DNA from: Euzebya sp.
Lineage (GTDB): Bacteria; Actinomycetota; Nitriliruptoria; Euzebyales; Euzebyaceae
Length of the DNA stretch: 64,000 nucleotides
Assembly: GCF_964222135.1 (NCBI RefSeq)
Contig: NZ_CAXQBR010000003.1
Span: forward strand, 1-64,000
Reading direction: 5' to 3'
Each line of letters starts with the position of its first letter. Position 1 is the first letter of the stretch. The notes below the pieces were generated by a model. It had not been told where the DNA came from and ran no database searches. It saw nothing but the letters and a program-made list of their open reading frames with translations. Shown piece by piece: positions 30,499 through 41,888 of the stretch. A program made the position numbers and the translations under genes.

Positions 30499-30538
30499 CC
30501 ACTGCTCATCGCGTGCACGACCCATAGCCTTGGCCGCC

Positions 30539-32216
<1,678 letters not shown>

Positions 32217-32218
<2 letters not shown>

Positions 32219-32302: not shown

Positions 32303-34243
32303 TCAGCACGCCCCGGAGCTGTCCAGCTGGGTCGCAGCGGCGTCGCTGAGCACGCCGAGCCCGCCGGCCAGCAGCAGGTCGACGTCCGCCGGCGAGCACG
32401 CCATCTCGAGGGTCGCGGGTGGGACCGGGTCCTGGGCGAGGGCGATCGCGGCGCCGGCGTCGGCGGCCAGCCCGGCCGCGGGGAGGCCGAAGAGCCACCC
32501 GTCGGCCCGGTAGCCGTTGATGACCACGAGCTGGCGGTTGCCGTCGTCCGTTGATCCCAGCAGCTCGTCGGCGATCGCCTGAGCGGTCGCGTCGCGGCTG
32601 TCACCGGCGATCCGCTGGGGGCCGGGGACCTCGTCCTCGACGGCCTGCGACAGGGCGGCGGTGCCGCCGAGCAGGACGGTCGCCGACGGGCCGGTGGCGT
32701 CGAGGAACGCCGCGACCGCGGGGTGCAGCGACGCGGTGTCGGTCACCACCGTCGGGATGGCCCGCAGCGCGGTCCACGCGCCGGCCGACACGCTGTCGGC
32801 CCATGCGGCGGTGGGGTTGTCAGCGGGTCCACCGGCTCTCGCGAGCGCCACGGTGTCGCCGTCGGCCCCGAGGGCGATGACCTCCTCGGCGACGCGCACC
32901 GAGGTCTCCACGCGTGAGGGGCCGGCCAGGCGGCGCACCTCGAAGGCGGTCAGCTGGTCCTCGACGGCTTGGCTGATGGCGCTGGTGCCGCCGAGGAGGT
33001 AGATCGGGTCGCCGTCGTCGAGCAGTCGCTGGATCTCGTCGGCGGTCGTGTCCGGCAGGGTGTCGGTCTCGGTGAACAGCAGCGGCCCACGTCCGGTGAG
33101 GGCGGCACCGACGAGGGAGTCGGCGAAGGCGTCGTCGCGGGACAGCACGACGTGGGCGGCGCCGTCGCTGCCGTCGCAGTCGAAGCGGGCCTGGCTGACC
33201 GCGACCGCGTAGGCGATCGGGTCGGTGAAGTCCGCCCGCTCCGTCGTCGCCGGGTCGCCGTCGAACCCGCCACAGGCGATCGGCGCCTCGGTGGGCGGTG
33301 GTGGCGGCTCCTCCAGCGGCGTCGGCGGGGTCTCGGGTGCGCGGCCCCAGGACGTGGCCGCGCCGTCGGAGGAGATCTGGCGGAGGTCGCCGCCGGAGAG
33401 GTCCGTGGACCACATGTCGGCGGCGCTGAAGTCCGGTCGCTCCATGGAGAACGCGACGCGGGTGCCGTCCGGCGAGAACAGCGGGTCGCGCTGGAACCGG
33501 TCGTCCGGGGAGATGACCTGCCGCAACCCGCCGTCGGTCCCGAGGATGCAGGTGCTCGGGTCCGACGTGTCGGTGTCGACGTAGCAGGCGACGACGAGGC
33601 TGGCGCCGTCGGGGGAGGAGTCGAGTCCGAAGTCCTCGAGGATCTGCACGCCCTCGACACCGATCTCCGTCGCGGTGCCCGTCGCGGGGTCGATCCGGAC
33701 GATCCGGCGCCCCTCGGCCTGGTAGGCGAACCCGTCGGTGGACCAGGTGATGTCGTGGGCGCCCGCGCTCGTCGCCGGGTTCAGCGGCCGCGCACCGGTG
33801 CCGTCGATCCCGATGACGCTCCACCCGGCCTGGAGGTCGAGGTAGATCACCTGGCTGCCGTCGGGTGACCAGGCGCCCTGGTGGGCCGCCCGGCCCGCGG
33901 GCACCACCTCGATGACCGGACCGCCGGCGGTCGAGATGCGGCTGAGCCCGTCCCCGGGCGTCCTGATGAGCAGCTCCCGGCCGTCCGGGGACACCTCGGG
34001 GCTGAAGCCCGGCCCGGGCTCGGCCCCGATGGCCCGCTCCGCACCTCCGGGGGTCACGGCGATCAGCCCCGGGGTGGTCGCCCCGTTGCCGTCGGTGTCA
34101 CGGGTCAGGAACAGCTCGCCGTTCGGCCCCGGGTTCGCGGCGCCCGCGACGTCGGGGAGCACGAGCAGGACGAGCACCAGCGCGCCGAGGAGCGCACCGG
34201 CACGCCGGAGTGCGATCGCCGGGGCGGGCGTCATGCCGCGCAC
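32303..34243 (-). CDS. Secreted CWB2 protein with beta-propeller-like N-terminus (paralogue 4)
   Basis: A 646-residue exported protein with signal peptide ALLGALVLVLLVLPDVAGAA. Residues about 40-310 hold repeated PD40/TolB-like strands (WSPDGSQVIYLD, FSPDGTRVAFSM), suggesting a beta-propeller. A Pro-rich linker (PPTPLEEPPPPPTEAP) leads to three cell-wall-binding repeat 2 modules. Their signatures are IYLLGGTSAISQAVEDQL, RLAGPSRVETSVRVAEE, TVLLGGTAALSQAVE and RIAGDSRDATAQAIADE. Cys pairs (IACGGFD, RFDCDGS) flank the first module. It is last in the four-gene tandem. Its start overlaps the stop of the preceding paralogue by 13 bases. It is presumably held non-covalently in the cell wall. Confidence 0.88.
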   Translation of the reverse strand: MRGMTPAPAIALRRAGALLGALVLVLLVLPDVAGAANPGPNGELFLTRDTDGNGATTPGLIAVTPGGAERAIGAEPGPGFSPEVSPDGRELLIRTPGDGLSRISTAGGPVIEVVPAGRAAHQGAWSPDGSQVIYLDLQAGWSVIGIDGTGARPLNPATSAGAHDITWSTDGFAYQAEGRRIVRIDPATGTATEIGVEGVQILEDFGLDSSPDGASLVVACYVDTDTSDPSTCILGTDGGLRQVISPDDRFQRDPLFSPDGTRVAFSMERPDFSAADMWSTDLSGGDLRQISSDGAATSWGRAPETPPTPLEEPPPPPTEAPIACGGFDGDPATTERADFTDPIAYAVAVSQARFDCDGSDGAAHVVLSRDDAFADSLVGAALTGRGPLLFTETDTLPDTTADEIQRLLDDGDPIYLLGGTSAISQAVEDQLTAFEVRRLAGPSRVETSVRVAEEVIALGADGDTVALARAGGPADNPTAAWADSVSAGAWTALRAIPTVVTDTASLHPAVAAFLDATGPSATVLLGGTAALSQAVEDEVPGPQRIAGDSRDATAQAIADELLGSTDDGNRQLVVINGYRADGWLFGLPAAGLAADAGAAIALAQDPVPPATLEMACSPADVDLLLAGGLGVLSDAAATQLDSSGAC

Positions 34244-36162
34244 CCGGGGGCGGCGTCGAGCTGGTCGGTGACGGCGTCGGGGAGGGCGTCGAGTCCGCCG
34301 GCGAGGAGGATGTCGATGGTGTCGGGGCTGCAGGCCATGGTGGTGGTCTCCGGGGGGAGGGGGTCTTGGGCGAGGGCGATGGGGGCGTGGGTGTCTGCGG
34401 CGAGGCCGGCGGCGGGGAGGCCGAAGAGCCAGCCGTCCTCGCGGAAGCCGTTGATGACGACGAGCTCGCGGGTGTCGTCGTCGGGCGGGCCGATCTGCTG
34501 GGTGGCGATGGCCTGGGCGGTGCCGGCGCGGCTGGCGCCGGCGATGCGGGTGGGGTTGGGGACGGCGTCGGCGACGGCGGGGGAGAGGGCGGCCTCGCCG
34601 CCGAGGAGGAAGGTCTTGTCGGGTTGGGCGTCGGCGATGAAGTCGGCGACGGCGGGGTGGAGCGAGGCGGTGTCGGTGACGACGGTCGGGACGGCGTCGG
34701 CTGCGGTCCAGGCGCCGGCGGTGACGGAGTCGGCCCAGGCGGCGGTGGGGTTGTCGGTGGGGCCGCCGGCGCGGGCGATGGCGAGGATGCCGGCGTCGTC
34801 GCCGAGGGTGCGGACCTCGGTGGCGACGGCGACGGAGGTCTCGACGCGTGACGGGCCGGCGAGGCGCTGGACGTCGTGGCCGGCGTCGGTCAGCTGGTCG
34901 GCGACGGCTTGGCTGATCGCTGCGGTGCCGCCGAGGAGGTAGATGGTGCCGCCGTCGTCGAGGAGCCGGTCGATCTCGGTGGCGGTGGCGTCGGGGAGGG
35001 TGTCGGTGCGCGTGAACAGGAGGGGGCCGTCGCCGGTGAGGGCGGCGCCGACGAGGGAGTCGGCGAAGGCGTCGTCGCGGGAGAGCACGACGTGGGCGGC
35101 GGCGCGGCTGCCGTCGCAGTCGAAGCGGGCCTGGCTGACCGCGACGGCGTAGGCGATCGGGTCAGCGAAGTCCGCCCGCTCGGTGGTCGTCGGGTCGCCG
35201 TCGAATCCGCCGCAGGCCAGCGGCTCCTCCGACGCCGGCGGCGGCGGTGGCGTGCCCCCGCCGGCCACGGCCCACTCCGGGCTGATCCCCAGCCCACCGA
35301 CGGCGCCGAGCGCCTGCGTCCCGGCCCCGGCGATCGGGGTCACGTACAGCATCGCGTCGTCCGCCCGGGCGGGACCGATGAACGCGACCTGGGTGCCGTC
35401 GGGCGAGAACGCCGGGTGTGCCGGCTCGACATCGACATCGCTCAGGTCGACCGTGCGCTGCACGACCATGTCGAGCCCGGTGATGCACAGCCGCAGGCTG
35501 AACGAGTTGTCGTCCGGTTGCACGCACGCGAACACCAGCTGCGACCCGTCGGGGCTGGCGTCCACGCCCAGCCCTTGGGCGTTGGGGGACTCCTCCGGGT
35601 CCACGATCCGGGACTCCCCCGTGGCCGCATCGATGATGAGCATCGCCGACAGCTCGATGGCCACGATCTGGTCCTGCGACGTCCAGGTCACCGACTGGTA
35701 CGTGAACTGGCCACCGGATTGCCGGTTCGGGGCGAGCACCCGGGGCGCGCTGCCGTCCACCGGGTGCGCGGTGAAGGTCTCGCCGTCGACCACCAGGATC
35801 TCGCTGCCGTCCGGCGACCACTCCAGGGCGTAGGTGGCGGCGTCGAGCTGGACGAGCAACTCGCGGTCGTCGGTCGTCCCGCCCAGCGGCTGGACGTACA
35901 GGTTCCGCTGCAACGTGTAGGCGACGGCCGTCCCGTCAGGCGAGACCGCCACCGAGTCGATGATGTTCGGCGGGACCAGTTCACGGCGGTCCCCGGTCGC
36001 CGGGTCCACGGCGACCACGGTCTGGAAGCGCGAGTCGGCGGGGTCCTGGGCCAGGACGACGATCTCACCGTTCTCACCGGGCGCGACCGCGGCGGCGGGG
36101 GCGACCGGCAGGGTGAGCAGCAGGCAGGTCAGGACGATCAGCAGCGGACGGGGGCGGGTCAT
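34231..36162 (-). CDS. Secreted CWB2 protein with beta-propeller-like N-terminus (paralogue 3)
   Basis: A 643-residue exported protein starting at ATG 36162, with GGAG nine bases upstream. The signal peptide is LLIVLTCLLLTLPVAPAAA. The propeller part has VSPDGTAVAYTL, WSPDGSEILVVDG and FSPDGTQVAFIG. A GGGTPPPPPASEE linker precedes three CWB2 modules (IYLLGGTAAISQAVADQL, RLAGPSRVETSVAVATE, FLLGGEAALSPAVADAV, RIAGASRAGTAQAIATQ). The DNA of the CWB2 part is nearly identical over long stretches to the neighbouring paralogue, for instance 33112-33240 against 35050-35178. That indicates recent duplication or gene conversion. Confidence 0.88.
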   Translation of the reverse strand: MTRPRPLLIVLTCLLLTLPVAPAAAVAPGENGEIVVLAQDPADSRFQTVVAVDPATGDRRELVPPNIIDSVAVSPDGTAVAYTLQRNLYVQPLGGTTDDRELLVQLDAATYALEWSPDGSEILVVDGETFTAHPVDGSAPRVLAPNRQSGGQFTYQSVTWTSQDQIVAIELSAMLIIDAATGESRIVDPEESPNAQGLGVDASPDGSQLVFACVQPDDNSFSLRLCITGLDMVVQRTVDLSDVDVEPAHPAFSPDGTQVAFIGPARADDAMLYVTPIAGAGTQALGAVGGLGISPEWAVAGGGTPPPPPASEEPLACGGFDGDPTTTERADFADPIAYAVAVSQARFDCDGSRAAAHVVLSRDDAFADSLVGAALTGDGPLLFTRTDTLPDATATEIDRLLDDGGTIYLLGGTAAISQAVADQLTDAGHDVQRLAGPSRVETSVAVATEVRTLGDDAGILAIARAGGPTDNPTAAWADSVTAGAWTAADAVPTVVTDTASLHPAVADFIADAQPDKTFLLGGEAALSPAVADAVPNPTRIAGASRAGTAQAIATQQIGPPDDDTRELVVINGFREDGWLFGLPAAGLAADTHAPIALAQDPLPPETTTMACSPDTIDILLAGGLDALPDAVTDQLDAAPGCAA

Positions 36163-36179
36163 GTCGTTCTCCAGGGAGG

Positions 36180-38561
36180 TCAGCACGGGGATGCCAGGGC
36201 GTCGCGGACGGGTTGGGTCACCAGCCGCAGGGGGCCGATCACCTCGTGGCGCTGTCGGGTGCCGGTCGCGCACAGGGCGGCGTCGGTCTCGGGGGGCAGG
36301 GAGGTGACGGTGGTCAGCAGCAGGGGTGCGTCGGCGTCGGCGGACAGGCCGGCGGCGGCGAGGGCGTAGTTCCACGCATCCCCCTCCGTGCCGTTGGCGA
36401 CCAGGCGCTCCGGCCCGGGGGCCTGCCACAGCTGCGCGGCGATCTGCGCCGCCGTGTCGAACCTGGTCTGTCCGCCGACGCGGGTCGCCTCGATCGAGTC
36501 GGCGATCGCGGGGCTGACCGCGGCGTCGCCGCCGAGGACGACGGCCGCGTCGTGATCGGACCGGTCGAGGAAGGCCTGCACAGGCTCGGGGAGGGCATCG
36601 GCGTCACCGGGCACGAGCAGGATCGGGTTCTGCGTGTCGGCCGCCCACCCGCCTGCGGCCACCGAGTCGACCCACGCCGCGGTCGGGTTGCCCTCCGGGC
36701 CGAACGCACGCGCGACCCCCACCGTGGTCCCGCCACCGCGGGCGACGGCCTCGTCGGCGATCGCGACCGCGGTCTCGATCCGCGTCGGGCCGCTCAGGCG
36801 TCGTGGGCTGAGGCCGAGGTCGGCCACGGCCTGCTCGACGGCACCGCTGAGCGCCGCCTCGCCGCCCAGCAGGTAGACGGTGGCACCGGGGGTCAGGGTC
36901 CGCTGGAGCTGCGCCGCCGCGGCGGGTGCGAGCGCGTCCTGCGCGGTGAACAGCATGGGCGCGTCGCCCGTCAGCACCGACCCGGTGAGGGCGTCGGCGA
37001 AGACGTCGACGCGGGCCAGGACGGCCCCGGCGGCCCGCTGGCGACCCGCACCCGCGAACGTCCCGTCTGCGTCCTCGAACCGCGCGAGCGCGAGCTGCGC
37101 GGCGTACTCGATCGCCTCCTCGCGCGACGTCCTCGCGTCGGCGATCGTCACCGTCGCCTGCCGCGGGTCGCCGATGATGTACCCGTCGCCATCGGTGATC
37201 TCGACGACGACGGTCTCCGCGGGTTCGTCGACGTCGTCGGGGATCGGCGCGACGATCAGGTTCACCAGGTTCGTGCCGTCCGGGATCGTCACCGACGTGG
37301 GCAGTGCGACGTAGTCCTCACCCGCCACCGCGGTGCTCTCCGGGGAGACGCGGATCGAGACCTCGAGGTCGCCGTCGGTCACCCCCGTCCGCTCGATCGT
37401 GAAGTTCCCCCCGTTCGTGCCCGACGTGCCGACCTCGCCGGCGTCGGGATCGAGCGCCTCGATCCGGACGCTCTCCGCGCCGGGGATGACCGAGCGCCAG
37501 TCCGTCTCGTCCACGCGCTCGGTGGCGAGCACGAGCTCGGGGGAGGAGCCGTCGGCGCGCATCCGCCACAGCGAGTGGACCCCGCCGTCCCGCGGCGTGT
37601 TCCGGTCCGAGGCGAAGGCGATCCACTCCCCATCGGGTGAGAAGGAGGGGTTCAGGTCCGCCGGGGCCGTCGGGAACTCGCCGCCGATCCACTCCGCGCC
37701 CTCGGTGAGGTTGGTGATCGCCCCGCCGCCCTCGGACACGACCAGGACGTCGGTGTCGTCCTCCTCGGGGTCGTTGCCGCTGACGCAGCTGCCGAAGTTG
37801 CTGCCGTCGTTCGGGTCGAACTCGCGGGTCTCGAAGGAGCCGAAGAAGACGATCTCGCCACCCGGTCCCCAGTCGGGATCGCTCAGGCCCTCGTACCAGG
37901 CGTACTCCTCACCGACGGACGTCGAGGGCTGCACGAGCCACGAGGACCCGAGGGTCGCGGGCGATCCGGCGCCGAGGTTCGACGGGACGTCGGCGACCCG
38001 CAGGCCGTGGGGGTTGAAGTCGTCGGTGGTCCGGTTCTCGGGGTTGCGGGTGTCGCCCGGACATCCCCGGGTGAACTCCTCACGGCTGGCGAACGCGATC
38101 TGCGTGCCGTCTGGGGACCAGGTCGGCTGCCGCCCGGCCGGCTCAACCCGGGCCAGGAGGTTGCCCTGGGTGTCGATGATGTGGACGACGTCCTCTTGGG
38201 TGTCGGCGTCGAACGCGGTGTGGGCGATCATGCTGCCGTCGGGAGACAGCTCGGGGCCGCCGCCGACGCCGTCGATCGGGAACGTCGCGCCGTCCGGGTT
38301 CTGCAGGACCGTGGTCCCGCCGTCGACGTACACCAGGTACAGGCCGTCGGGGGTCCAGTCGAAGTCGCCACCGCGGGCCGGCCCCTGCTGCACCGAGTCC
38401 GTGCCGTCCGGGTTGACGAGGTGGTGGCTGCCGAAGTCGCTCCAGCCGATCTGGAACCCGAGGGGGACCTGCGCCTCGGACGGGGCGACCGCCGCCGCCG
38501 TCATCACCAGCACCCCCACGAGGATCGTCGCGGTCCGGCGGCGGGCCGTCGTCGTGCGCAT
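36180..38561 (-). CDS. Secreted CWB2 protein with propeller and Calx-beta-like domain (paralogue 2)
   Basis: The largest of the four, 793 residues. The signal peptide is TILVGVLVMTAAAVAPSEA. Propeller-like repeats (TWSPDGTQIAFAS, SFSPDGEWIAFASDRN) occupy about 30-400. A Calx-beta-like domain follows (about 415-525: FTIERTGVTDGDLEVSI, TAVAGEDYVALPTSVTIPDG, DEPAETVVVEITDGDGYIIG). Three CWB2 modules end the protein (VYLLGGEAALSGAVEQAV, RLSGPTRIETAVAIADEA, VVLGGDAAVSPAIADSI). Calx-beta domains are calcium-binding beta sandwiches of adhesins. The CWB2 part is more divergent than in the other three and lacks the CGGFDGD segment. Confidence 0.87.
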   Translation of the reverse strand: MRTTTARRRTATILVGVLVMTAAAVAPSEAQVPLGFQIGWSDFGSHHLVNPDGTDSVQQGPARGGDFDWTPDGLYLVYVDGGTTVLQNPDGATFPIDGVGGGPELSPDGSMIAHTAFDADTQEDVVHIIDTQGNLLARVEPAGRQPTWSPDGTQIAFASREEFTRGCPGDTRNPENRTTDDFNPHGLRVADVPSNLGAGSPATLGSSWLVQPSTSVGEEYAWYEGLSDPDWGPGGEIVFFGSFETREFDPNDGSNFGSCVSGNDPEEDDTDVLVVSEGGGAITNLTEGAEWIGGEFPTAPADLNPSFSPDGEWIAFASDRNTPRDGGVHSLWRMRADGSSPELVLATERVDETDWRSVIPGAESVRIEALDPDAGEVGTSGTNGGNFTIERTGVTDGDLEVSIRVSPESTAVAGEDYVALPTSVTIPDGTNLVNLIVAPIPDDVDEPAETVVVEITDGDGYIIGDPRQATVTIADARTSREEAIEYAAQLALARFEDADGTFAGAGRQRAAGAVLARVDVFADALTGSVLTGDAPMLFTAQDALAPAAAAQLQRTLTPGATVYLLGGEAALSGAVEQAVADLGLSPRRLSGPTRIETAVAIADEAVARGGGTTVGVARAFGPEGNPTAAWVDSVAAGGWAADTQNPILLVPGDADALPEPVQAFLDRSDHDAAVVLGGDAAVSPAIADSIEATRVGGQTRFDTAAQIAAQLWQAPGPERLVANGTEGDAWNYALAAAGLSADADAPLLLTTVTSLPPETDAALCATGTRQRHEVIGPLRLVTQPVRDALASPC

Positions 38562-38565
38562 CACG

Positions 38566-40548
38566 TCAGCACCCGGGGGCGTCGTCGAGCTGCGCGGCGA
38601 CCGCCTCGGTGAGGACGCCGAGGCCACCGGCGAGCAGGAGGTCCACGTCCGCTGGTGCGCACGCCATCTCGAGGGTCGCGGGTGGCACCGGGTCCTGCGC
38701 CAGCGCGATCGCGGCATCCGCGTCGGCGGCCAGGCCGGCCGCCGGCAGGCCGAAGGTCCAGCCGTCCGCGCGGTAGCCGTTGATGACGACCAGCTGGCGG
38801 GTGCCGTCCTCGGCGTCGCCGATCAGCTCGGCGCCGATCGCCTGGGCGGTGGCGTCGCGGCTGTCCCCGGCGATGCGCACTGGGTTCGGGACCGCGTCGG
38901 CGACGGCGGCGGACAGCGCCGCCTCACCGCCGAGCAGCACGGTGCGCTCGAGGTCGTCGAGCCCCTCGATGAAGTCTGCGACCGCGGGGTGCAGCGACGC
39001 GGTGTCGGTCACGACGGTGGGGATGGCGTCCGCGGCCGTCCACGCCCCGGCCGACACGCTGTCGGCCCAGGCGGCGGTCGGGTTGTCGGCCGGGCCGCCG
39101 GCCCGGGCGATCGCGATGGTGGTGACGTCGGTCCCGCGGGCCGGGGCGGTCCCGACGGCCAGCTCGGCCACCTCGACGGAGGTCTCGACCCGGGAGGGGC
39201 CCTCGAGGCGGGCGACGACGTAGTCGAGGTCGAGCTCCTCCTCGATCGCGTCGGAGATCGCGGCGTTCCCTCCCAGGATGTAGACGGTGTCACCGGGGTC
39301 GAGCAGCCGGTCGATCTCCGTGCGGGTCTCCGACGGCAGGGTGTCGGTCTGGGTGAACAGCAGCGGCCGGTCGCCGGTCAGGGCCGCCCCGACGAGTGAG
39401 TCGGCGAAGTTGTCGTCGCGGGACAGCACCACGGCGTTGGGCAGGTCGCTGCCGTCGCAGCCGAACCGCGCCTGGCTGACCGCCACCGCGTACGCGACCG
39501 GATCGGTGAAGTCCGCCCGCTCGGTCGTCGCCGGGTCGCCGTCGAACCCACCGCAGGCCAGCGGGGCGTTCGTCGGCGGGGGCGGTGGATCCTCGAGCGG
39601 GGTGGGTGGCGTGTCCGGCACCCTGGCCCAGGACTGCAACGTCGCGACGTTGCCCTGGAACCGGGAGTCGGGCGGCAGGTCCGCGACCTGCTGGACCCCG
39701 GTGCCCTCGGGGGTGGCGGTGTACAGCCGCGCCACGTCGGCGGCGAAGTCCACCCCGACGAAGGCGGTACGCGTGCCGTCGGGGCTCCAGACCGGCTTGT
39801 CGATGCGCGGCACCCCGGCCACGGAGGGCGGGATGTAGCGGATGACGCCGAGGTCGCGCCCCAGGATGCACACGCCCACGACGGCGTCCGCCGAATCGTC
39901 GGTGCAGGTGATCGCCAGCTGCTGGCCGTCCGGCGAGCTGTCGACGCCGTACTGGGTGTCGAAGCGCAGCTCGGTGGGGCTCTCGAGCGCGGTGACCGCG
40001 CCGGTGGCGGCGTCGATGCGGACACCCTCCTCGCGGAAGCGCTCGAGGACGAAGATCTCGTCGAGCCGGGTCCACAGCACCGCATCGATGTCGGTGCTGA
40101 ACGTCGGGTCGCCCGCGGCGTCGTACAGCACCTGCGGGTTGGTGCCGTCGGCGTCGTAGACCGTGAGGACGCTGCCGTCAGCGACCGCGATGCGGGAGCC
40201 ATCCGGTGACCAGCTGACGTCGGGTCGACCGCCGGCCCCACCGCGCGGCACCAGGACCTGCGTGGGACCCCCGGCCAGCGACACGATGCTGATGTCCCGG
40301 CTGTCGGTCGTGCCGGTGTGCAGCACGGTCCTGCCGTCGGGTGAGATCTCGGCGTGGATCGCGGACCCCTCGGTCAGCTCCGTGATCGTGCCGTCCGCGC
40401 CCACGGTGGCGATGCCCGTCGTGTCGGTGCTGGAGAACAGGAACGGACCGTTGGACCCCGGGGACGTCGCCTGGCTCGGCAGGGCCGAGCAGAGGAGCCC
40501 CACCAGGAGGAGGGCCGTGGTGGTCGGTGCACGGGTGCCGCGTCGCAT
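38566..40548 (-). CDS. Secreted CWB2 protein with beta-propeller-like N-terminus (paralogue 1)
   Basis: A 660-residue exported protein. The signal peptide is TTALLLVGLLCSALPSQA. The propeller part contains SWSPDGSRIAVADGS and VWSPDGTRTAFVGVD. The linker is PPTPLEDPPPPPTNAP. CWB2 signatures are VYILGGNAAISDAIEEEL, RLEGPSRVETSVEVAEL, VLLGGEAALSAAVADAV and RIAGDSRDATAQAIGAE. It is the first gene of the tandem, 33 bases after the mshC-like gene on the same strand. No Shine-Dalgarno sequence precedes the ATG. A 21-base hairpin abuts it instead. Confidence 0.88.
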   Translation of the reverse strand: MRRGTRAPTTTALLLVGLLCSALPSQATSPGSNGPFLFSSTDTTGIATVGADGTITELTEGSAIHAEISPDGRTVLHTGTTDSRDISIVSLAGGPTQVLVPRGGAGGRPDVSWSPDGSRIAVADGSVLTVYDADGTNPQVLYDAAGDPTFSTDIDAVLWTRLDEIFVLERFREEGVRIDAATGAVTALESPTELRFDTQYGVDSSPDGQQLAITCTDDSADAVVGVCILGRDLGVIRYIPPSVAGVPRIDKPVWSPDGTRTAFVGVDFAADVARLYTATPEGTGVQQVADLPPDSRFQGNVATLQSWARVPDTPPTPLEDPPPPPTNAPLACGGFDGDPATTERADFTDPVAYAVAVSQARFGCDGSDLPNAVVLSRDDNFADSLVGAALTGDRPLLFTQTDTLPSETRTEIDRLLDPGDTVYILGGNAAISDAIEEELDLDYVVARLEGPSRVETSVEVAELAVGTAPARGTDVTTIAIARAGGPADNPTAAWADSVSAGAWTAADAIPTVVTDTASLHPAVADFIEGLDDLERTVLLGGEAALSAAVADAVPNPVRIAGDSRDATAQAIGAELIGDAEDGTRQLVVINGYRADGWTFGLPAAGLAADADAAIALAQDPVPPATLEMACAPADVDLLLAGGLGVLTEAVAAQLDDAPGC

Positions 40549-40581: not shown

Positions 40582-41751
40582 CTAACGGTCGGCGCCCACC
40601 CGGCCCGCGCCACCGCCGCCGAAGCCCAGGCTGGCCGCCGCCGCGCGTGCGGCCCACCCCTCACCATCGCCCGCCGCGGCGTCGATCAGCGCGAGCGCGC
40701 CGGGGGCGTCGAGGTCGTCGTCGAGCCGTGCGCCGACCGCGGCGAGCAGGTCCTCGGCCGCCGCGGGGTCGCCGTCGGGCGCGGCGTCCCAGCCCTTCAC
40801 CGCCGCAGCTGCGAGCTCCATCTCGTCCTCGGTGTAGTCCCACTCGCTGCGGTAGTGGTGGCTGAGCAGCAGGTAGCGGACCGCGTCGGCGTCATGGCGG
40901 TCGAGCAGGTCGCCCAGGAAGACGAGGTTGCCGAGGCTCTTCGACATCTTGGTCCCGTCCAGCCCGACCATGCCGACGTGCATCCACACACGGGCGAACG
41001 GCGCCTGGCCGGTCAACCCCTCGGCCTGGAGGATCTCCGCCTCGTGGTGGGGGAACACCAGGTCGCTGCCGCCGCCGTGGATGTCGATCACGGGGCCGAG
41101 GTGCTCGGTCGCCATCACCGAGCACTCGAGGTGCCATCCCGGTCGGCCCCGGCCCCACGGCGCCTCCCACGACGGCTCGTCGGGCAACGACGGCTGCCAC
41201 AGCAGGAAGTCGAGCGCGTCCCGCTTGCCCTCGGCCTCGGGATCACCGCCCTTCTCGGCGAACTGCCGCAGCGCCTCGTCGCGGTCCAGGCGGGAGAAGC
41301 TGAGGAAGCCGTCCATCGCCCCGGTGTCGGCGTACACGCGACCGTCGCCGAGGGCGTAGGCGAGTCCGCGGTCGAGCAGCCCGCCGACCGTCGTCACCAT
41401 CGCCGGGACGGTCTCGGTGGCGTAGGGGATCACGTCGGCCTCACGCAGCCCGAGGCGGCGGAGGTTGACGTCGAAGGCCGCGGCCTCCGAGCGCGCGAGG
41501 ACCTCGAAGTTGACATCCCGCTCGCGAGCGGTCCGGAGGATGTCGTCGTCGACGTCGGTGACGTTGCGCACGTAGACGACCCGGTGCCCGCGGGCCTCCA
41601 GGCGGCGGATGAGCACGTCGAAGGTCGTGTACACGAACGCGTGACCCAGGTGCGCTGAGTCGTACGGCGTGATGCCGCAGACGTACAGCCGGACCGTGGC
41701 CGCGGCGATGAAGGTGTCCACGGCGCGGGTCCGGGTGTCGTACAGGCGCAT
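40582..41751 (-). CDS. mshC: Mycothiol ligase MshC-like (cysteinyl-tRNA synthetase homologue)
   Basis: A 389-residue class-I synthetase fold that would join cysteine to glucosaminyl-inositol in mycothiol synthesis. VCGITPYDSAHLGHA resembles MshC (GITPYD, HLGHA) rather than CysS (GPTVYD, HIGNA). The length lacks the C-terminal anticodon-binding domain of CysS. Zinc residues Cys (CGI), Cys (HLECSVM) and His (FPHHE) and the KMSKS loop GLDGTKMSKSLGN are intact. A bona fide CysS cannot be fully excluded. mca at 25660 supports the pathway. It starts at ATG 41751. The CWB2 genes follow on the same strand. Confidence 0.75.
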   Translation of the reverse strand: MRLYDTRTRAVDTFIAAATVRLYVCGITPYDSAHLGHAFVYTTFDVLIRRLEARGHRVVYVRNVTDVDDDILRTARERDVNFEVLARSEAAAFDVNLRRLGLREADVIPYATETVPAMVTTVGGLLDRGLAYALGDGRVYADTGAMDGFLSFSRLDRDEALRQFAEKGGDPEAEGKRDALDFLLWQPSLPDEPSWEAPWGRGRPGWHLECSVMATEHLGPVIDIHGGGSDLVFPHHEAEILQAEGLTGQAPFARVWMHVGMVGLDGTKMSKSLGNLVFLGDLLDRHDADAVRYLLLSHHYRSEWDYTEDEMELAAAAVKGWDAAPDGDPAAAEDLLAAVGARLDDDLDAPGALALIDAAAGDGEGWAARAAAASLGFGGGGAGRVGADR

Positions 41752-41851
41752 CGACGTCGTCCTCGTCACAGGTGCTGAACCCGGCGATGGTAGACGGGGT
41801 GGATCCTTCCCGGACCTAGTCATTTCGGGCGGACCCGGGCAGAAAGGGAGA

Positions 41852-41888
41852 AGCCCGGCGGAGAGCGCAGTCAACTCTCCGCCGGGCT
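41852..41888 (-). terminator. Strong intrinsic terminator downstream of rnhB
   Basis: AGCCCGGCGGAGAG (41852-41865) and CTCTCCGCCGGGCT (41875-41888) form a perfect 14-bp stem with a 9-base loop. On the minus strand it is followed by TTCTCCCTTTCT, a pyrimidine tract. It lies about 100 bases beyond the rnhB stop, so it probably ends the rnhB transcript. Confidence 0.75.

Follow-up and report, generated by a model that had tools for sequence, protein, structure and literature searches.

What history gives a run of neighbouring genes encoding surface proteins that resemble each other closely in one half and far less in the other? The question is raised by four consecutive minus-strand genes, here A, B, C and D, in a genome of the genus Euzebya; they lie in a window of 64,000 nt, the whole stretch of DNA that was analysed. 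The preliminary description saw in them a tandem quartet of exported proteins with a common order of propeller-like repeats, Pro-rich linker and three CWB2 modules, and suggested that the display module is homogenised while the binding head diversifies, as in antigenic or ligand-recognition families. As detailed below, this observation is real but was over-read: the locus holds three related propeller–CWB2 genes plus a different one, within a very large repertoire.

The four genes are confirmed between two synteny anchors. One is an EttA-like ABC-F gene (30530..32218, plus strand), the convergent neighbour of the cluster, 85–87% identical in three congeners; the other, identified by tblastn synteny and ORF listing, is a CysS/MshC-like gene (40582..41874, minus strand) upstream of A, whose stop codon precedes the start of A by approximately 33 bp. 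Gene A (38566..40548, minus strand, 660 aa), characterized by Pfam (PD40 and CW_binding_2), AlphaFold2, Foldseek and synteny, encodes a signal-like N-terminus, a PD40 propeller head, a Pro-rich linker and three CWB2 modules (at approximately residues 31–312, 313–331 and 344–656, respectively). Gene B (36180..38561, minus strand, 793 aa) has, according to Pfam, a larger, different PD40 propeller, and a Calx-beta domain (residues 388–478) in place of the Pro-rich linker; its three CWB2 modules belong to another subgroup than those of A, C and D. Genes C (34231..36162) and D (32303..34234), both on the minus strand and of 643 aa, encode a PD40 propeller, a Pro-rich linker and three CWB2 modules (Pfam, MaxChi and per-repeat identities). 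The common domain order thus stands for the propeller and the anchor in all four genes, and for the linker in A, C and D only.

Genes A and B are separated by 4 bp and B and C by approximately 17 bp, while C and D overlap, the stop codon of the former and the start codon of the latter sharing an ATGA sequence (34231..34234, minus strand). As the gaps do not exceed 17 bp and C and D overlap, the four genes are probably cotranscribed as a single, operon-like transcript. A scan for promoter consensus, uninformative at such GC content, yielded none, and two weak terminator-like sites were found. In B and C the program-listed open reading frames start too early, and with the later starts adopted on inspection both proteins begin with a signal-like sequence; judged by inspection, the N-termini of all four proteins are basic, hydrophobic, rich in small residues and signal-like.

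PD40 (WD40-like) repeats and CW_binding_2 exceed the curated Pfam cut-offs in all four genes, each of which also contains three CWB2 repeats according to our own repeat model. For A, AlphaFold2 predicted, from an alignment of seven sequences and with a mean pLDDT of 77 and a pTM of 0.53, an all-beta propeller followed by a low-confidence linker and a CWB2 trimer of three alpha/beta units. The modelled head contains six beta-strand groups from approximately residue 33 to 309, and our reading of the strand list is that the propeller would have six blades. Foldseek matches of the head are many propellers, the TolB structures 1crz and 7mx5 among them, while the best matches of the anchor are the Clostridioides difficile Cwp8, Cwp6 and SlpA heavy subunits (5j6q, 5j72, 7acy, 7acz), the predicted pseudo-trimer fold agreeing with 7acy/7acz at TM (target) of 0.64–0.71. 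With PD40 above the cut-off in A–D and the fold modelled for A, the heads classify as PD40/TolB-like propellers.

The contrast between divergent heads and similar anchors is confined to A, C and D, which form one family with B outside it. In these three, protein identity is 31–36% in the heads and 72–77% in the CWB2 parts (A–D 77%, A–C 72%), while the CWB2 part of B is just 41–45% identical to theirs. The near-identity of the CWB2 halves at the DNA level, claimed in the preliminary description for some places, holds to a limited extent: overall DNA identity is 77–78%, reaching 94% in a patch between C and D, and the longest exact match, also between C and D, is 39 nt. Fourfold sites in shared codons agree at 53–62% in CWB2 and at 37–50% in the heads. 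As synonymous sites are near saturation, any homogenisation must, on the sequence evidence, be old, and the anchors are not recent copies. The comparison of synonymous sites between the paralogs was dropped because of saturation and the confounding effect of codon bias; an odd base composition is common to C and the gene found at the same locus in the congener G002 (see below).

Copy number at the locus differs between species. Three congeners were compared, with one genome per species, and the number of propeller–CWB2 genes is four here, one in the sister species G002, and zero in G001 and G003; hence we see no fixed set of single orthologs, the finding that the preliminary description named as speaking against it. 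One of the three, G003, ties the group to the genus Euzebya: its second contig has a CWB2 site that coincides in coordinates with one on the Euzebya pacifica plasmid NZ_CP031166. The single G002 gene (L097:9889-11838) is convergent to EttA, CysS not being adjacent there. In G001 and G003 the EttA–CysS interval lacks a CWB2 gene and is filled by an MMPL transporter gene (L106:12384-14654 and L107:12553-14853), and since this gene replaces the propeller–CWB2 genes in two congeners, the spot turns over between species. G017, which belongs to the same order, has EttA and CysS side by side. By identity and position, the head of A is orthologous to the single G002 gene; for the head of B, a search with its first 474 residues yielded no ortholog in any of the three congeners. 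The first wide scan of named genomes yielded no relative, and in a further one the matches, from one Euzebyaceae MAG and two actinobacterial MAGs besides, did not go beyond the CWB2 level.

The G002 gene shows that the two halves of A have different affinities. In the head, A is 52% identical to the G002 gene and 31–36% to C and D; in CWB2, its identity to the G002 gene is 63%, below that to D and C. The head tree groups A with the G002 gene (support 100/99), and an A+C+D clade excluding the latter is rejected (AU p = 0.008). Among residues where A matches just one of G002 and D, the counts are 76:28 in the head and 11:53 in CWB2 (Fisher p = 7.6e-13), while in control ortholog pairs (G003/G001 and C94a/G002_b) the halves are concordant, with p = 0.21–0.65 in four comparisons and 0.058 in the fifth. 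Whichever of three outgroups is used, four-taxon AU tests prefer A+G002 for the heads and A+D for CWB2; p for the opposite tree is 0.008–0.079 in the heads and 0.007–0.094 in the anchors, so that two of three tests are only near 0.05–0.09. In larger trees, A+G002 is not rejected for the CWB2 half (13-taxon protein AU p = 0.13; 9-taxon DNA AU p = 0.14), and hence the topology evidence for anchor discordance is moderate.

These data could be accounted for with no exchange at all, if binding to the wall polymer constrains the anchor and makes it evolve more slowly, A, C and D being plain old tandem duplicates. Heads are indeed faster in true orthologs as well (dN of 0.093 in the head against 0.046 in the anchor for the G001–G003 pair), A and the G002 gene differ by 48% in the head and 37% in the anchor, and the many-taxon AU tests do not reject a common topology for the CWB2 half. 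But a difference in rate cannot place A nearer to G002 in the head and nearer to D in the anchor, nor is a fast G002 anchor the explanation, since outgroup distances are similar for the anchors of A and the G002 gene, and the control pairs show no such discordance. Mosaic structure inside CWB2 also speaks against it: repeat 1 of D is nearest to C (84%) and its repeat 3 to A (83%), the first repeat of C is nearest to D, and MaxChi identifies both anchors as mosaic, the best triplets having p of 2e-5 to 8e-5, which is under the Bonferroni limit for the 210 tests screened. The other gene-conversion test, based on run length, found no convincing recent tract, because synonymous sites are near saturation. 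We thus regard the constraint-only explanation as unlikely. Anchor exchange between copies is supported by the sequence comparisons, and the proposed homogenisation of the display module is fairly well backed when restated as an old exchange of anchors, with the reservation that the large AU tests are not significant.

Could the heads be diversifying, as the second half of the same proposal holds? An antigenic-variation or ligand-recognition system, with diversifying selection on the heads and a homogenised display module, would agree with heads diverged while anchors are alike, and with the copy number varying between species. The suggested dN/dS comparison is possible for one ortholog pair, G001–G003, the only pair with usable dS (0.58–0.60), the values for other pairs being too high to interpret. 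The head of this pair has a dN/dS of 0.16 and the CWB2 part one of 0.077; both are under purifying selection, the head less strongly. When the heads of A and the G002 gene are compared, strands are 50% identical and loops 53%; changes are spread evenly, loops are not enriched in them, and this loop test gives no sign of hypervariable binding loops. The cluster showed no convincing sign of long invertible repeats, tandem repeats or a diversity-generating retroelement, and such inverted repeats as were listed are GC-rich matches that are either short or imperfect. The only long reverse-transcriptase match on the contig is a domain (G000:C3:223452-224114, L217) in a 463-aa frame approximately 183 kb from the cluster. 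Euzebya is a free-living marine lineage that is not known to be under pressure from host immunity. An antigen-like role of the heads is thus very improbable.

The cluster is a small part of the CWB2 complement of this genome. We identified 135 non-redundant frames with CWB2 repeats in 5.06 Mb, a few of them cut by contig ends; 119 have three repeats, approximately four times the 29 CWB2 proteins reported for C. difficile (PMC5817068). The genes are scattered over the genome, so that the cluster comprises four of approximately 120, most of which carry other heads. Candidate numbers are similar in the three congeners, and the family is uneven across the wider order. PD40 is present in 12 of 123 other heads scanned; the remaining ones include subtilases, trypsins, penicillin amidases, M23 and M14 peptidases, as well as FG-GAP, DUF11, lectin-like and multicopper oxidase domains. 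By domain content, the heads of the repertoire are mostly predicted secreted enzymes and binding domains. In one more group (L196, L203, also L178) the order is inverted, with CWB2 preceding the PD40 propeller; the anchors of L196 and L203 are 74% identical and their heads, 37%.

Such company bears on what the heads of A–D may bind. The propellers might be partners or scaffolds of other wall-anchored enzymes, recruiting, for example, CWB2-anchored peptidases, which departs from the explanation that we prefer solely in the ligand of the heads. Subtilase, trypsin and other hydrolase heads occur in the same repertoire, propellers commonly serve as protein-interaction scaffolds, and TolB is among the fold matches; against this, such an enzyme gene is not recognised beside the cluster, as judged by gene starts. 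We consider such a scaffold role to be unlikely.

In the repertoire as a whole, the nearest other anchor bears a detectably homologous head in just 25 of 119 cases, although the number lacking one is inflated by heads that are short or fragmentary. Most anchor pairs are only approximately 36% alike, but L148 (Laminin_G_3, lectin-like) and L186 (DUF11) have unrelated heads on anchors that are 67.5% identical. This pattern hints at repeated re-pairing of heads and anchors. A further-reaching possibility, offered tentatively, is that the CWB2 anchor acts as an exchangeable socket throughout the Euzebya surface proteome, its segments recombining among more than 100 genes, re-pairing propellers, lectins and proteases and driving surface innovation.

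For the locus itself, we hold it probable that A–D are an operon-like set of wall-anchored propellers with non-catalytic binding heads on anciently exchanged anchors. The proteins would be exported via the signal-like sequence that inspection suggests at the N-terminus. In C. difficile, CWB2 modules are described as tying proteins non-covalently to PSII, an anionic secondary wall polymer (PMC8881574, PMC5817068); by analogy, the three modules here would fold as a pseudo-trimer and probably bind an equivalent anionic polymer. The propeller, carried in A, C and D by the short Pro-rich linker, would project outward and most likely present a non-catalytic surface that binds proteins, peptides or glycans. 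The heads of A, C and D appear to belong to lineages that were already distinct when this species and its nearest sister species diverged; after that divergence, segmental recombination, presumably gene conversion or unequal crossing over, would have swapped CWB2-coding halves among the copies, either in this genome or in that of G002, and it is because of this exchange that the anchors would be more alike than the heads. The exchange seems to be old, rather than an ongoing switching of sequences.

The locus and its genomic context show how extensive the set of CWB2 surface proteins is in an actinobacterial genus that has received little study, and for which titles and abstracts of the literature yielded nothing on surface proteins, and provide a worked case of separable histories for the anchor and the head of a bacterial surface protein. 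The wall polymer used by the anchors and the ligands of the propellers become concrete questions for the bench.

The cluster can be compared with several known systems. As in TolB and other PD40 propellers (PF07676), the heads have SPDG repeat motifs and a predicted propeller fold; unlike TolB, they are joined to a CWB2 wall anchor, and Tol-Pal neighbours are not recognised around the cluster. The C. difficile S-layer cassette (slpA-secA2-cwp2-cwp66) is likewise a cluster of CWB2 genes whose make-up varies from genome to genome (PMC5270738), but this 10 kb cassette is reported to vary between strains of one species, while here, with one genome per species, the data point to an old exchange of anchor segments between paralogs and give no evidence of strain-level switching. 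A further system of this kind is the C. difficile Cwp family. Differences from it are the propeller heads, absent from what we consulted of the Cwp literature, and the number and arrangement of genes, approximately 120 proteins compared to 29 (PMC5817068), encoded by scattered genes and with no evidence of an S-layer here. At the same time, SlpA, Cwp6 and Cwp8 (PF04122) have three tandem CWB2 modules with the same trimer fold as predicted here, the Cwp anchors are described as common to proteins with distinct accessory domains (PMC8881574), and SlpA, as a conserved anchor combined with a highly variable partner region (PMC5270738), in both respects similar to the cluster.
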